NCBI GenBank assembly: GCA_018064825.1
Contig: JAGHUL010000081.1
Location: 1-57,759 of the forward strand
DNA length: 57,759 nucleotides
Direction: 5' to 3'
From: Candidatus Colivicinus equi
GTDB taxonomy: Bacteria; Bacillota_I; Bacilli_A; Erysipelotrichales; Erysipelotrichaceae
Shown here: positions 1,082 to 47,087 of the stretch, piece after piece
How positions within the stretch are numbered: position 1 is the first letter of the stretch
Layout of the letters: the number at the start of each line of letters is the position of its first letter
Translations under genes and position numbers: made by a program
The notes under the pieces: model-generated
What the model saw: the letters and a program-made list of their open reading frames with translations, nothing else
Databases searched by the model: none
What the model was told of the DNA's origin: nothing

Positions 1082-2110
1082 CTATCTCTTAAATCCTTTT
1101 AAGAATCTAACATCATTTGTGAATAAATCCCTTATATCAGAAACGCCATATTTTAACATTGCAATTCTTTCTATACCTGCACCAAATGCGAAACCTGTAT
1201 ATTTTTTAGAATCAATACCAGCCATTTCTAATACATTAGGATGAACCATACCAGAACCTAAGATTTCAATCCAACCAGTTCCTTTACATGTTGGACAGCC
1301 TTTACCACCACAAATATGACAAGTCATATCTACTTCAAATGATGGTTCAGTAAATGGGAAATATGAAGGTCTAAATCTAATTTTTGCATCCTTAGAGAAT
1401 AGTTCATGAATCATTAATTCAAGAGTACCTTTTAAGTCGGCAACAGTTATATTTTCACCAATAACCAATCCTTCACATTGCATAAATTGATGTGAGTGCG
1501 TAGCATCATCATCATCTCTTCTATATACTTTACCAGGGCATATTACTTTAATAGGCAAGTTATTAGCTTCTTTTTCTAGTACACGCATTTGAATAGCTGT
1601 AGTTTGTGATCTTAATAAATGAGTAGGATCAATATAGAAAGTATCTTGCATATCTCTAGCAGGATGTCCTTCTGGAGTATTTGCACGAGTAAAATTATAT
1701 AAATCTAGTTCAACTTCTGGCCCTTCCGCAACGTTATAACCCATGCCAATGAATACATTCTCTAATTCTTGTTTAACTAAAGATAAAGGATGCATTGTAC
1801 CTAATTTTGGATTGTAAGCATCTAATGAAATGTCAATCTTTTCGCTAGCTAGTTTTAAATCTAAAGCTTTATTTTCTAATTCTTCTTTTTTTGCTTCTAA
1901 AGCCTCAGTAATTGCTGATTTAAGAGTATTAACTTTAGCGCCAAAAGTAGGTTTCTCTTCAGGTGACAAGTCTCTCATTAAAGACATAAGTCCTTGTACT
2001 TTACCTTTTTTAGATAAATACTCGATTCTTAAATCTTCTAATAACTTAGTGTCTAAACACTCATCAATGGCTTTTAAAGCATCGAGTTTAAGTTGTTCTA
2101 AATCTTGCAT
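1082..2110 (-). CDS. pheS: Phenylalanyl-tRNA synthetase alpha subunit
   Basis: 342 aa, the usual PheS length. An N-terminal coiled coil (about 1-85) that contacts tRNA is followed by the class II catalytic core. Motif 2 is seen around RSQTTAIQMR and VYRRDDDDATHSHQF, and a CxxC-x2-CxxC zinc-like cluster (CHICGGKGCPTC) precedes GWIEILGSGMVHP; motif 3 is GFAFGAGIERIAMLKYG. The enzyme makes Phe-AMP and transfers Phe to tRNA-Phe in the cytoplasm. Start ATG at 2110 follows an AAAGGGG ribosome site. It is the first gene after a Phe-specific T-box, so expression should rise when uncharged tRNA-Phe accumulates. Confidence 0.98.
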   Translation of the reverse strand: MQDLEQLKLDALKAIDECLDTKLLEDLRIEYLSKKGKVQGLMSLMRDLSPEEKPTFGAKVNTLKSAITEALEAKKEELENKALDLKLASEKIDISLDAYNPKLGTMHPLSLVKQELENVFIGMGYNVAEGPEVELDLYNFTRANTPEGHPARDMQDTFYIDPTHLLRSQTTAIQMRVLEKEANNLPIKVICPGKVYRRDDDDATHSHQFMQCEGLVIGENITVADLKGTLELMIHELFSKDAKIRFRPSYFPFTEPSFEVDMTCHICGGKGCPTCKGTGWIEILGSGMVHPNVLEMAGIDSKKYTGFAFGAGIERIAMLKYGVSDIRDLFTNDVRFLKGFKR

Positions 2111-15222: not shown

Positions 15223-15947
15223 TATTTCTTCACCAAAACAGCCGTTATATTATCAAAGCCGCCTTTCATTAAAGCAAGATCTTTTAAATCAACACATTTA
15301 TCATTAAGAGATTTACCATCCGCAAAAATAATATCTCTGATTTCTTCAATATCGCAATATCCATGCAAGCCATCTGAGCAACACAAATAATAGTCCATAT
15401 CTTTAACTTTATGTATATCAGCACTAATAGAATCAAATATGCCCATAGCTTTAGTTAAATAATGACGCTTAGGATGATTTATAGCCTCTTCAGCAGTTAT
15501 TTCTCCAGCATCTAACATCTGATTAATTAAACTATGATCTTTAGTTAAAGCGAAAGATTTGCCTTCTAAAAAGCCATAAACCCTTGAATCCCCAATATTG
15601 ATACTTAGTGTTCCGTGAGATGTGATAAGAACACCAGTAAGAGTTGTGCCCATACCAGAATATTCTTCATAAGATTTAGACAAATCATATATCTTTTGAT
15701 TAATTATAGAAATATGATGACTTAAAAAATTTGTAGCACTTTCTAGTTCATCAAATGGACCAGAATCTTTAAAGACAGTATCAAAATATTTGATACATTC
15801 ACTTGAAGCAACTTCTCCAGCTCTAGCACCACCTATTCCGTCAGCAACCAATGCTAAAACATCGCCATATTGATTAGCGATAGTAATAAACGCATCTTGG
15901 TTTTTTTCTCTTACTAAACCAATGTCAGTAATGCCACAATATTCCAT
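15222..15947 (-). CDS. prpC: PP2C-type protein phosphatase (PrkC partner)
   Basis: 241 aa, a typical stand-alone PP2C. Metal motifs are REKNQDAF (about 13-20), VADGIGGARAGE (about 35-46), GTTLTGVLI, NIGDSRVYGF, LTKDHSLI, and the C-terminal GGFDNITAVLV. It removes phosphates from PrkC and its substrates using Mn/Mg. It is the gene upstream of prkC on the same transcript, and lies 4 bp after rlmN. Confidence 0.96.
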   Translation of the reverse strand: MEYCGITDIGLVREKNQDAFITIANQYGDVLALVADGIGGARAGEVASSECIKYFDTVFKDSGPFDELESATNFLSHHISIINQKIYDLSKSYEEYSGMGTTLTGVLITSHGTLSINIGDSRVYGFLEGKSFALTKDHSLINQMLDAGEITAEEAINHPKRHYLTKAMGIFDSISADIHKVKDMDYYLCCSDGLHGYCDIEEIRDIIFADGKSLNDKCVDLKDLALMKGGFDNITAVLVKK

Positions 15948-34717: not shown

Positions 34718-35057
34718 TTAATAACATTTAATAAGCCATGTTCTGTATTAGATAATCATTTATCTGTGCAAATGCACCTCCTGAATAACTTCGTTTTGTC
34801 TTCAGAAGTTCCCCTACCAAATTTGGGTTTCTCGCTTAAGGGGTTTATCACGTTCCACTCTTAATATTTCTATCAAGCTCGTCTCTTTGACACTTTTATA
34901 GGCTAATTCCATGAGATATCTTTTAGGAATATTGCCAGCCGTTAACTTTCGTTACCTAAGTTTATTGTTTCACTTAGCTTAATCACTACATCCATCGCAG
35001 GATGTGCGAGCATGGACTTTCCTCTAGTAATACTAGCGATTATCTTAATGTTATTTG
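34718..35057 (-). ncRNA. rnpB: RNase P RNA, Bacillus (type B) class
   Basis: On the minus strand the conserved 5' core GAGGAAAGTCCATGCTCGC (about 35000-35018) and the 3' core ACAGAACATGGCTTA (about 34732-34746) are both present, with GGTAACGAAAG-like and GGTAGGGGAA segments between. P1 can form from AATAACATT (35047-35055) and AATGTTATT (34720-34728). The RNA is the catalytic part of RNase P and matures tRNA 5' ends. Its 5' strand of P1 overlaps the gpsB stop region, so processing from a gpsB-rnpB transcript is possible. Confidence 0.96.
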
Positions 35058-43328: not shown

Positions 43329-43358
43329 AAAAAGAAGTGTTTTTAAGCACTTCTTTTT
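43329..43358 (-). terminator. Terminator of the P-type ATPase gene
   Basis: An 11-bp stem (43329-43339 with 43348-43358) ends in five T residues on the minus strand. The TAA stop at 43343 falls in the loop of the hairpin. Confidence 0.9.
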
Positions 43359-46060
43359 CTAGCAGATCTTCTTAATGCTTTACCTAATTCGAATACCGGA
43401 ACTGTAGTTAAAGCAAGAATAATCGAAATAATAAGTTCTCTAGTTTCAAATGTACCAGGTGTAATGCCGAATACAGTTTGTAAACCAGGTAGATATATAG
43501 CCATTAAGGTAAATGCTACAGAAACTAGACCAGCACCAACTAGCCACCAGTTAGTATTCTTGATCATATCTTTAGATAAGATAGAGTGTCTTTGAGAGCG
43601 CATATTAATTGCACACATAATTTCAGCAAAGTTAACAGTTAAGAAAGCCATAGCAATAGCATTAGCGCAGTCTTCAATACCAAAGATAGATTCAATACTA
43701 CCTCTTTCTAGATATAGTCCAATAAAGAATGCGGCTAATTCAATGATAGCTAAATAGATTCCTTGCCATGTCATATCAATACCAGCTCCATGAGCAAATA
43801 CGCCATCTGAAGAATTACGTGGTTTTCTATTCATTACATCACCCTCGGCTTTTTCCATACCTAAAGCTAATCCAGGAAGTGAATCAGTAACCATGTTTAT
43901 CCACAATAAATGAACAGGTGTTAAGATTGTAAAATTCATTAACGATGATAAGAACATAATGATAACTTCTGATAAGTTTGTCGAAAGTTGGAATTGAATA
44001 ACTTTGCAGACATTATCATAAATCTTTCTGCCTTCTTCAACAGCATGAACAATAGTAGCGAAATTATCGTCAGCTAATACCATATCGGCAACAGACTTGG
44101 TAACATCAGTTCCAGTTATACCCATACCAACACCGATATCAGCTGCTTTAATACTAGGAGCATCGTTTACACCATCACCAGTCATAGCTGTAACCATGCT
44201 TCTAGCTTTCCACGCGTTTACAATCTTTGTTTTATGTTCAGGTTGAACTCTAGCATATACCGAATATTTAGTAACTTCTTCAATCATATCTTGATCAGAG
44301 AATTTGTCTAATTCTGATCCAACGATTGCTTGTGATTCGTCAGTAATGATTCCTAAATCAAGACCAATGGCGATAGCTGTATCCTTATGGTCGCCAGTAA
44401 TCATAACAGGTCTAATACCGGCTTTTTTGCATTCCTTAATTGCATCGTAAACTTCAGGACGACAAGGATCTATCATTCCGACGATACCAATAAATATTAA
44501 ATCGTGTTCTAAATCTTCTGGTTCAAAAGAAGTTGGAAGCATTTCGTGTTCTTTATATGCAGCACACAAAACTCTTAGTGCTTTTGAAGCAAATTCTTTG
44601 TTCTTTGCTTCAATGTTATTAATTAACTCTTCTGTAATTGGAACAACTTTTCCATCAAGAAGATATCCTGTACACTTTGTTAAAAGAACATCGATAGCAC
44701 CTTTTGTATATTGAATATACTTACCATCTACTTCATGAATCGTAGACATCATCTTACGATTAGAATCAAATGGCGCTTCACCTTTTCTAGGTTCTATTTT
44801 TTCTAATTCATATTTAGGAAGACTAAGTTTATTTGCATAATTTACTAATGCTGCTTCTGTAGGCTCACCAGTAGATTCACTTTCACCTTCTTTGATAGTA
44901 GCATCAGAGCATAAAGCCATAGCTTTTGCCAAAAGATTCTTATCAGATGTGAATTCATCGACAACTGTCATCTTATTTTGCGTCAATGTACCAGTCTTAT
45001 CGGTACAAATAATGTTTGTACAACCTAAAGTCTCTACAGCTGTTAATTTTCTAATGAGTGCTTGTCTTTTAGCCATCGCACTAACACCTATAGAAAGAAT
45101 GATAGTAACAACTGCAGGCATTCCTTCAGGAATTGCAGCAACGCCTAGTGCAACTGCAGCAATAAATGTGTCTAAAGCAACATTGCCCAAATTTGCCAAA
45201 GATAAGCCTTCATTAGATGTGATTAACGATTCAATTACACCAACAGTGAAGACAATAACACAAATCCATATTACCAACTTTGTTAAAAAGTTAGATAATT
45301 CAGTCATTTTCTTTTGCAATGGAGTTAATTCTTTTTCAGCCATATTTAACGCTGAAGCAATCTTACCCATTTCAGTGTCCATACCACAAGCTACAACAAC
45401 AGCTTTTCCTCTACCGTAAACAACAGTAGAACCGTTATATAGCATATTCTTACGATCGCCCAATGTTACATCGTGGTTTTCAGTACACATTAAGATGTCA
45501 ATTATTTTATTAACAGGAACAGATTCTCCGGTAAGTGCCGCTTCTTCTGCTTTTAAACTGTGTGATTCAATGATACGACAATCAGCAGGAACAGTATCAC
45601 CTGCTTCAAAATAGATTACATCACCAACTACTATATCTTCTGCCTTAACTATCTCTATTTCGCCATCACGATAAACTTTTGATGTTGCAGCAGTCATCTG
45701 CATTAAGGCATCCATTGCCCCTTCAGCCTTGCTTTCTTGAACCAAAGACATAATTGTATTGATTATTACTACGACTAAAATAACAAATACGTCTGCAAAT
45801 TCAGAGAACTTAAAGCCATCTTTCATCTGAATAACATTTACAACAGCTTGAATAGCTGCAGAAACTATCAACATGATGATCATTGGATCAGTAATAGAAT
45901 TTAAAAACTTTTGAAGTAAAGTTTCTTTATCAGCTTGTTCTAAAACGTTTTTACCATTTTTTTCTAATCTAGTTTGGGCCTCAGCTTTACTAAGACCACC
46001 TTCACTACTAGATGTTTTAGATAAAGTGTCTTTAATACTAGTTAAATAATATTTTTCCAT
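43343..46060 (-). CDS. P-type cation ATPase (Ca2+/Mn2+-type, riboswitch-controlled)
   Basis: 905 aa from the ATG at 46060, which follows GAGGG; four codons earlier is a weaker start. It is a P2A-like pump: ten membrane segments, TGES, IPEGMPAVV in M4 (about 300), DKTGTLTQNKM (phosphorylated Asp, about 345), KGAIDVLL, MITGDHKDTA, MTGDGVNDAPSIK and NMVTDSLPGLALG in M6. Annotation would say Ca2+ ATPase, but the upstream yybP-ykoY riboswitch indicates Mn2+ export, as known for related lactococcal and streptococcal pumps. The stop is inside the terminator. Confidence 0.93.
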   Translation of the reverse strand: MEKYYLTSIKDTLSKTSSSEGGLSKAEAQTRLEKNGKNVLEQADKETLLQKFLNSITDPMIIMLIVSAAIQAVVNVIQMKDGFKFSEFADVFVILVVVIINTIMSLVQESKAEGAMDALMQMTAATSKVYRDGEIEIVKAEDIVVGDVIYFEAGDTVPADCRIIESHSLKAEEAALTGESVPVNKIIDILMCTENHDVTLGDRKNMLYNGSTVVYGRGKAVVVACGMDTEMGKIASALNMAEKELTPLQKKMTELSNFLTKLVIWICVIVFTVGVIESLITSNEGLSLANLGNVALDTFIAAVALGVAAIPEGMPAVVTIILSIGVSAMAKRQALIRKLTAVETLGCTNIICTDKTGTLTQNKMTVVDEFTSDKNLLAKAMALCSDATIKEGESESTGEPTEAALVNYANKLSLPKYELEKIEPRKGEAPFDSNRKMMSTIHEVDGKYIQYTKGAIDVLLTKCTGYLLDGKVVPITEELINNIEAKNKEFASKALRVLCAAYKEHEMLPTSFEPEDLEHDLIFIGIVGMIDPCRPEVYDAIKECKKAGIRPVMITGDHKDTAIAIGLDLGIITDESQAIVGSELDKFSDQDMIEEVTKYSVYARVQPEHKTKIVNAWKARSMVTAMTGDGVNDAPSIKAADIGVGMGITGTDVTKSVADMVLADDNFATIVHAVEEGRKIYDNVCKVIQFQLSTNLSEVIIMFLSSLMNFTILTPVHLLWINMVTDSLPGLALGMEKAEGDVMNRKPRNSSDGVFAHGAGIDMTWQGIYLAIIELAAFFIGLYLERGSIESIFGIEDCANAIAMAFLTVNFAEIMCAINMRSQRHSILSKDMIKNTNWWLVGAGLVSVAFTLMAIYLPGLQTVFGITPGTFETRELIISIILALTTVPVFELGKALRRSARKRSA

Positions 46061-46075
46061 AATTACCCTCAATAT

Positions 46076-46102
46076 AAATAAAACTCATGTTATCACATGA
46101 GC
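46076..46102 (-). terminator. Riboswitch-controlled terminator before the P-type ATPase
   Basis: Minus-strand stem of GCTCATGT/ACATGAGT type (46083-46102) followed by TTTTATTT. One arm can alternatively pair with the segment at about 46111-46118. Confidence 0.75.
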
Positions 46103-46133
46103 ATCTATATACTCATGCACAACAAAGTTACGC

Positions 46134-46212
46134 ATGAGTCTCGCTATTTAAGACAAACCAGGCATGGCCGAGATTGTTGGCGTGTCGCGCATCGCGCAAG
46201 CTACTCCCTCAT
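46134..46212 (-). promoter_or_regulatory. yybP-ykoY manganese riboswitch aptamer
   Basis: Minus strand: the 5' consensus GGGAGTAGC follows the P1 strand ATGAG (46208-46212), and the 3' consensus AGCGAGACTCAT ends with the P1 partner CTCAT (46134-46138). Between lie GCCAACA and CTCGGCC-type internal segments. This four-way junction class binds Mn2+ between loops L1 and L3 and is placed before Mn exporters. Downstream, mutually exclusive CATGAG/CTCATG segments form either a terminator or an antiterminator, consistent with an ON switch. Confidence 0.88.
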
Positions 46213-46219
46213 CGAGTAA

Positions 46220-46248
46220 ATATTACTATAATATAAGCACATTTTCAA
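46220..46248 (-). promoter_or_regulatory. Promoter of the riboswitch/P-type ATPase transcript
   Basis: Minus-strand -35 TTGAAA (46243-46248), 17-bp spacer, -10 TAATAT (46220-46225); the transcript should begin at the aptamer P1. Confidence 0.7.
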
Positions 46249-46277: not shown

Positions 46278-47087
46278 ATGAAAAGGATATATCTAGAAAT
46301 CACTAATAGTTGTAATCTAAACTGTTCATTTTGTTCATATAAAAAAGGAAATAACTTTTTAACCATAGAAGAAATAGATAATTATACAACCCAAATAAAG
46401 GAATTTACTGATTATATATATTTACATATTCTAGGAGAACCACTATTGCATCCACAAATAGAGAAAATACTAGATATTCTTGATGCAAAAGATATTAACC
46501 TACAATTAGTTACAAACGGAACATTGTTATCCAAACATAAAAACATTTTAAATCATAAATGTATTAGAAAGCTTTCTATCTCTATACATTCAATCAATAA
46601 TCTTGATATTGATGATAATTATTTTGAAACTATAAACGAACTAATTGAAAACAATAATGATAAAACCATTGAATTAAGGTTTTATAATAGACAACAATTA
46701 TCAGACAAGTTAAATTCTTATTTAAGTACTCTAAAGAATAGATACTCTTTTTTAGATACAAAAAGAGATAACTCATACAGACTAAAAGAACATGTATACA
46801 TCTATTTCCAAGACTTTTTTAAATGGCCTGAAATAGATGATGATGTTGTTTCAACAACCGGCACATGCCATGGTGGCATAGATATGATAGGAATTAATAG
46901 CAAATCCGATGTAACGATATGTTGCTTAGATCCAAAAGCTTATAACAAATTAGGTAATTTAAAAGAAAAATCACTTAAAGAGATTCTTCAAAGTGATTTG
47001 TATGATCAATTCGTAACTAATTTTAAGAATCATAGAATAGATTCGGAGCTATGTAAAAGATGTACTTATCGTCTACGCTTTAAATAG
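46278..47087 (+). CDS. Radical SAM protein with SPASM/twitch-like C-terminus
   Basis: 269 aa. The [4Fe-4S]-SAM motif CNLNCSFC is at about residues 12-19 and a GEP motif follows (LGEPLLHPQIEKIL, about 54-67). The C-terminal part has CHGGIDMIGINSKSDVTICCLD and ELCKRCTYR, giving auxiliary Cys typical of SPASM/twitch domains that bind extra clusters. Such enzymes modify peptides, proteins or sugars; no peptide substrate gene is evident nearby. There is no ribosome site. It converges on the SpoU-like gene with an 8-bp overlap and lies opposite the Mn-controlled ATPase. Confidence 0.8.
   Translation: MKRIYLEITNSCNLNCSFCSYKKGNNFLTIEEIDNYTTQIKEFTDYIYLHILGEPLLHPQIEKILDILDAKDINLQLVTNGTLLSKHKNILNHKCIRKLSISIHSINNLDIDDNYFETINELIENNNDKTIELRFYNRQQLSDKLNSYLSTLKNRYSFLDTKRDNSYRLKEHVYIYFQDFFKWPEIDDDVVSTTGTCHGGIDMIGINSKSDVTICCLDPKAYNKLGNLKEKSLKEILQSDLYDQFVTNFKNHRIDSELCKRCTYRLRFK

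Follow-up and report, generated by a model that had tools for sequence, protein, structure and literature searches.

A probable yybP-ykoY-family Mn2+ riboswitch ahead of a P2A-type ATPase gene in Candidatus Colivicinus equi

The 5′ leader of a P-type ATPase gene of Candidatus Colivicinus equi is, very probably, a Mn2+ riboswitch of the yybP-ykoY family, one that switches on the transcription of a cation-exporting pump of the P2A type. The pump is itself probably induced by Mn2+ and, to judge from the sequences compared here, probably exports this ion, perhaps together with Ca2+. The window, by which we mean the whole 57,759-nucleotide stretch of DNA that was analysed, carries the leader at 46212-46084 on the reverse strand, the strand of every feature described below unless another is given.

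Locus and aptamer

The gene (43343..46060, with its ATG at 46060) codes for a 905-residue protein recognized by the Pfam families E1-E2_ATPase, Cation_ATPase_N and Cation_ATPase_C, and the sequence reads as a Shine-Dalgarno motif, GAGGG, at 46066..46070. A consensus scan places a sigma-70-like promoter, TTGAAA-17-TAATAT, at 46220..46248, and a like spacing of the -35 and -10 boxes is seen in the genus alignment; on this consensus the transcript would start just before P1, the first helix of the aptamer. The leader then unfolds as an ordered series of motifs (AUGAG, GGAGUAGC, a hairpin, a second arm with CAACAAUCU, AGCGAGA, CUCAU, GCAUGAG, CUCAUGU, ACAUGAG and UUUUAUUUAU), and its folding is more stable than that of shuffled sequences (z -2.4). 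The intergenic region is common to a divergent gene, 46278-47087 (+), whose product falls into no specific family of radical SAM/SPASM proteins. Elsewhere in the window, an Rfam scan recovers a class B bacterial RNase P RNA at 34727-35051 (-), with 267 bits.

The aptamer, matched at 46132..46214 by the two covariance models described in the next section, can be followed helix by helix. The 5′ strand of P1, AUGAG (46208..46212), pairs with CUCAU at 46138-46134 and encloses GGAGUAGC...AGCGAGA, the conserved ends of yybP-ykoY elements; P1 is paired in 100% of cells across 22 leaders of the genus, with little variation. It is followed at 46199..46207 by the loop L1, GGAGUAG, and the 5′ strand of P1.2 (GCU, 46201-46199). 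The L1 motif GGGAGUAG is unchanged in 30/30 aligned elements that lack P4, while P1.2 covaries, with C-G in 13 and U-A in 16 sequences. Both features by which a member of the family is recognized, the conserved L1 (GGGAGUAG) and the closing AGCRAGA strand with P1, are thus present. The P2 hairpin, GCGC-GAU-GCGC (46187..46197), is 98.9% paired with compensatory changes, and alignments and pair counts delineate at 46152..46186 the P3 arm, GACACGCC / GGUUUGUC with one C-U mismatch, the helix P3.2 (GGC/GCC) and the loop L3, CAACAAUCU.

Within L3, the CAACA at 46179-46175 is invariant both in the 22 genus leaders and in the 30/30 aligned P4-less elements. Members of the class have been described as making their Mn2+-specific contact through N7 of an adenosine that does not vary: A41 in Lactococcus lactis (UCA41AUUC) and A48 in Xanthomonas oryzae (ACA48UACU; PMC6754395). 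Because the window reads ACA-AUCU at this place (CAACAAUCU), the adenosine at 46175 would, by analogy with these motifs, be the equivalent Mn2+-sensing discriminator. A four-way junction, P1 to P4, was looked for in the alignments: P4 is absent, a UUAAAU linker standing in its place, so that the junction is a three-way one. P4 is, by analogy with the three-way form of Streptococcus pneumoniae mgtA as it is cited in PMC9495176, a non-obligatory feature of the family, and several leaders of the CCUUU type drop P2 instead.

This architecture is kept in the 22 same-genus leaders of the same ATPase, which align over their whole length. The fold proposed for the bound state (P1, P1.2, P2, P3, P3.2 and S3:S4, where S2 to S5 denote the switch segments described below) is paired in 95.6% of cells, and both partners have changed in 13 of its pairs, values reached by 0/500 shuffles; these shuffle statistics ignore relatedness, the compensatory changes being nonetheless spread over several helices. 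Slid controls of the same fold gave 16-55% paired. The fold proposed for the free state (S2:S3 and S4:S5) is 92.3% paired, both partners having changed in 14 pairs. In one leader of the genus (L022) another terminator stands downstream. The larger set of 30 P4-less aptamers, in which the order and Clostridia are represented beside the genus, has 17 pairs with both partners changed.

Family membership and target genes

A covariance-model scan had been named by the original prediction as the experiment on which the family assignment could fail, and its outcome depends on the model. RF00080 has no match in the window at its gathering score and none genome-wide, and a scan of 401 bases at E of 10 or less returned chance matches only. 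This null result has to be regarded as that of an insensitive test, since RF00080 (Rfam 15) gives even the validated riboswitch of Escherichia coli mntP a score of 41.6 bits, below the gathering cut-off of 45 bits, and since none of 18 riboswitch-like leader loci, mostly textbook GGGGAGUAGC...AGCAAGACC and with Clostridia leaders included, passes that cut-off. We can set against it a model, R1, made from 18 leaders outside the genus, E. coli mntP included: its sole significant match in the 1.69 Mb of the genome is the leader element (31.7 bits, E 0.0012; E 4e-5 within the window), the next best standing at 17.5 bits and E 2.2. An R1 match at 15253-15286 (+), with 16.9 bits and E 0.1, was dismissed as it skips most of the model. 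A second model, R2, was built from the 30 P4-less aptamers and is not independent for them, the window sequence, which scores 81.7 bits, being part of it; another R2 match in the same genome (C87:25039, 18.6 bits) lies inside a coding sequence, is devoid of the L1 motif, and was discarded.

The distribution of these elements is telling as to their role. R2 finds 82 of them in 50/61 related genomes, 39/82 standing 52-108 nt before the ATPase gene and 18/82 before mntP. Reciprocally, 58/72 close homologues of the ATPase have an R1 or R2 match on the same contig piece, which in 55 lies within about 300 nt upstream. In two genomes of the genus, G031 and G016, one copy of the RNA precedes the ATPase and another mntP. 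With RF00080 the mntP copy of G031 reaches 34.3 bits (E 4.6e-6), and the gene that immediately follows it codes for an MntP exporter (Pfam PF02659, E 3.6e-40). That this RNA also stands before Mn2+ exporters within the genus is the best evidence as to the ligand that sequence comparison would provide. The two kinds of copies in these genomes differ in L3 (L215/L010 and L216/L019), with CAACAUACU before mntP and CAACAAUCU or CAACAACCC before the ATPase.

Several other loci are of note. The mntP gene of the genome studied here (C55:2936-3385 (-), L186) has no R1 or R2 match nearby, which counts against the reading proposed here; a reading frame ends shortly before its start. A second yybP-ykoY-like subtype exists in the genus (L169, L170, L172, L173, L174 and L176, in G003, G013, G017, G031, G033 and G004), marked by GGGAGUAA and by CGUCA...CCGG in L3, directly before a SPFH/flotillin gene, the L169 protein having the Pfam domains Band_7 and Flot. 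Nine R2 matches (L171, L175, L177, L178, L179, L181, L182, L183 and L184) precede genes of other types: a Na+/Pi cotransporter with a PhoU domain, Na+/Ca2+ exchangers, a PHO4 phosphate transporter, CNNM-type proteins and a TetR regulator. At L105 the ATPase element has a second Mn2+ riboswitch-like element, 1748-1841 (-), as its back-to-back neighbour on the other strand, with 36.2 bits for R1 and 22.5 bits for R2.

One could argue that the leader is an attenuator built of terminator and antiterminator, unrelated to yybP-ykoY and responding to another signal: Rfam offers no match, and the CUCAUG segments alone could build such a device. This is highly improbable in front of the independent R1 match, of the association with mntP, and of invariant L1 and L3 motifs that are common, together with the covariation of P1.2, to the leaders of many Clostridia. 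On its sequence, the element is a yybP-ykoY riboswitch by every feature tested except the Rfam score and P4, and the original assignment to this class, with its consensus ends and its P1 of ATGAG/CTCAT, is borne out by the R1 match, by the covariation in the 22 leaders and by the presence of the same RNA before mntP in relatives.

It is worth placing the element among known systems. It is like L. lactis yoaB in its L1 (GGGAGUAG), its P1/P2/P3 architecture and its discriminator adenosine in L3 (RF00080; PMC9190785, PMC11087558), and also in having a P-type ATPase as its target and, in the mechanism proposed below, P1 as the switch helix and a transcriptional ON logic (PMC9190785). It differs in the sequence of P1 (AUGAG/CUCAU in the window), in the lack of P4, and in the way the signal would be relayed: in the window a distinct anti-antiterminator strand, S3, is in competition with the 3′ strand of P1, while in L. 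lactis it is the 3′ segment of P1.1 that enters the terminator (PMC11087558). S. pneumoniae mgtA, as described in PMC9495176 and PMC10543277, also has a three-way-junction aptamer of this family before a P-type ATPase. With E. coli mntP the element has in common P1, L1, a P3 with CAACA in L3, and the closing strand AGGCGAGA/AGCGAGA; but the E. coli riboswitch, described as translational (PMC11647493), has P4 and controls the MntP exporter, and the window element does neither.

The switch

Downstream of the aptamer core, the leader is organized as a chain of mutually complementary segments. S2, ACUCAUGCGUAAC (46127..46139), includes the 3′ strand of P1 (46138-46134) and can pair either with the 5′ strand of P1 or with S3, GUUGUGCAUGAGU (46111..46123). 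S3 in turn pairs with S2, as an anti-antiterminator, or, via GCAUGAG at 46118-46112, with S4, as an antiterminator. S4, CUCAUGU (46095..46101), is the 5′ arm of a terminator whose 3′ arm S5, ACAUGAG (46090-46084), continues into a U-rich tail (46074..46090 in all). The hexamers CTCATG/CATGAG occur four times within 55 nt (at 46133, 46112, 46096 and 46084) and 13 times elsewhere in the 57.8 kb window; about 0.01 such cluster is expected by chance. The four segments which had been predicted to follow P1 do exist, with the correction that one of them is the 3′ strand of P1 and that three follow it. The terminator predicted at 46083-46102 is the single site of the region in a terminator scan, at exactly 46102-46083, none being found in 50 shuffles. 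Computed energies are -14.8 kcal/mol for S2:S3, -9.0 for S4:S5 and -7.2 for S3:S4. In the 22 leaders S2:S3 is 93.0% paired; for S3:S4 the figure is 98.7%, and three of its pairs have both partners changed.

When the folding of the growing transcript is computed, the fold of lowest energy includes P1 while the polymerase is at 46132-46124; P1 gives way as soon as the whole of S3 has been made, which leaves a short time for bound Mn2+ to hold P1. We may then picture a scheme where, as the polymerase passes 46132-46124, the aptamer and the P1 helix (S1:S2) would be able to form. Mn2+ bound between the loops L1 and L3 would let P1 persist and leave S3 free; S3 would pair with S4, blocking the S4:S5 terminator, and the gene of the pump would be transcribed. 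Without Mn2+, a 13-bp S2:S3 hairpin would replace P1, S4 would pair with S5, and transcription would stop at the U-rich tail around 46083-46074. The induced pump would remove Mn2+, and possibly also Ca2+. In this scheme the binding of Mn2+, the polarity of the switch and the substrate of the pump are what we infer; the ON logic that had been predicted holds as far as can be read from the leaders, where both alternative folds covary.

The reverse polarity, that of a Mn2+ OFF switch, deserves consideration as five mutually complementary segments permit several pairings, and as a review terms Mn2+ riboswitches OFF switches (PMC11477304). Yet S2 is common to P1 and S2:S3, and S4 to S3:S4 and S4:S5, so that P1 favours read-through, and the yoaB switch of L. 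lactis is of the ON type (PMC9190785). We see very little chance that the polarity is inverted.

The pump, its ion and the compact branch of the family

The pump finds its best match in TIGR01116, of SERCA type, yet below the cut-off of this family, and its nearest solved relative is the Listeria Ca2+-ATPase LMCA1 (PDB 6zhf, E 1.5e-198). Residues E312, N695, E698, N722, T725 and D726 are kept in 73/73 homologues (the window protein and 72 others), and E813 in all those that are readable there. We take these residues to be the counterparts of SERCA E309, N768, E771, N796, T799, D800 and E908, in the established numbering. LMCA1, in contrast, lacks three SERCA-type ligands that the window pump has kept, with N, A and R at T725, E698 and E813. 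The two-site ligand set being complete, the sequence is no argument against transport of Ca2+; it would be compatible with Ca2+, Mn2+ or both. Several P-type ATPases stand under yybP-ykoY elements, L. lactis yoaB, S. pneumoniae mgtA and Clostridioides difficile CD2503 (PMC9190785, PMC10543277, PMC11477304), and among those controlled by the Mn2+ class YoaB protects against Mn2+ (PMC11477304, which also lists CD2503). S. pneumoniae MgtA is reported to move Mn2+/Ca2+ (Martin et al. 2019 NAR 47:6885, as cited in PMC9495176 and PMC10543277). We consider it likely that Mn2+ is a physiological substrate, and Mn2+ export, alone or with Ca2+, the likely function that the sequences suggest. Mn2+ export is probable, but the original prediction that the pump should be read as a Mn2+ exporter goes too far, given the full set of SERCA-type ligands and the Mn2+/Ca2+ precedent in Streptococcus.

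A rival reading leaves the aptamer within the yybP-ykoY type but has it tuned to a different divalent ion, Ca2+ being the most plausible, for the control of a pump that expels Ca2+; the ligand set, complete in 73/73 homologues unlike LMCA1, would agree with this. So would the base that follows the discriminator adenosine, a purine in 24/24 ATPase leaders of the genus and a pyrimidine in 18/18 mntP leaders of the order. Variants of yybP with a changed metal specificity are expected by Sherlock and Breaker (PMC7266159), and the S. pneumoniae mgtA aptamer reportedly binds Ca2+ more tightly than Mn2+, according to a review (PMC9495176). We nevertheless hold this tuning to be unlikely. The discriminator adenosine which donates N7 is retained, and L. 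lactis yoaB, an ATPase leader reported as Mn2+-specific (PMC9190785), has a purine at the next position (UCA41A; PMC6754395). Moreover, that base had been tried as a marker of target or ligand and was rejected: it separates the groups in the genus and the order but fails across Clostridia, where the other ATPase leaders carry all four bases (19 T, 5 C, 14 A and 12 G), so that it is no marker of the target gene. A narrower proposal would give a changed metal specificity to the ATPase-associated three-way-junction aptamers of the genus: these would sense Ca2+, or Ca2+ along with Mn2+, rather than Mn2+ alone, and the purine after the discriminator would be their mark, while the mntP copies beside them in the same genomes would remain sensors of Mn2+. 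This seems to us quite unlikely, a shade more so than the Ca2+ tuning. Our preferred reading remains that of a Mn2+ riboswitch.

The paralogous switches of G016 and G031, one before the ATPase and one before mntP with a different L3, make a clean test of metal specificity in the yybP-ykoY family, a question raised in PMC7266159. The consequence for annotation is of a more general nature. The Rfam model now in use for the Mn2+ riboswitch fails to recognize an entire branch of compact members, found in rumen and gut Erysipelotrichaceae and in many Clostridia, and the exporters of these genomes are therefore left unannotated as Mn2+-responsive; standard annotation would have lost the riboswitch described here.
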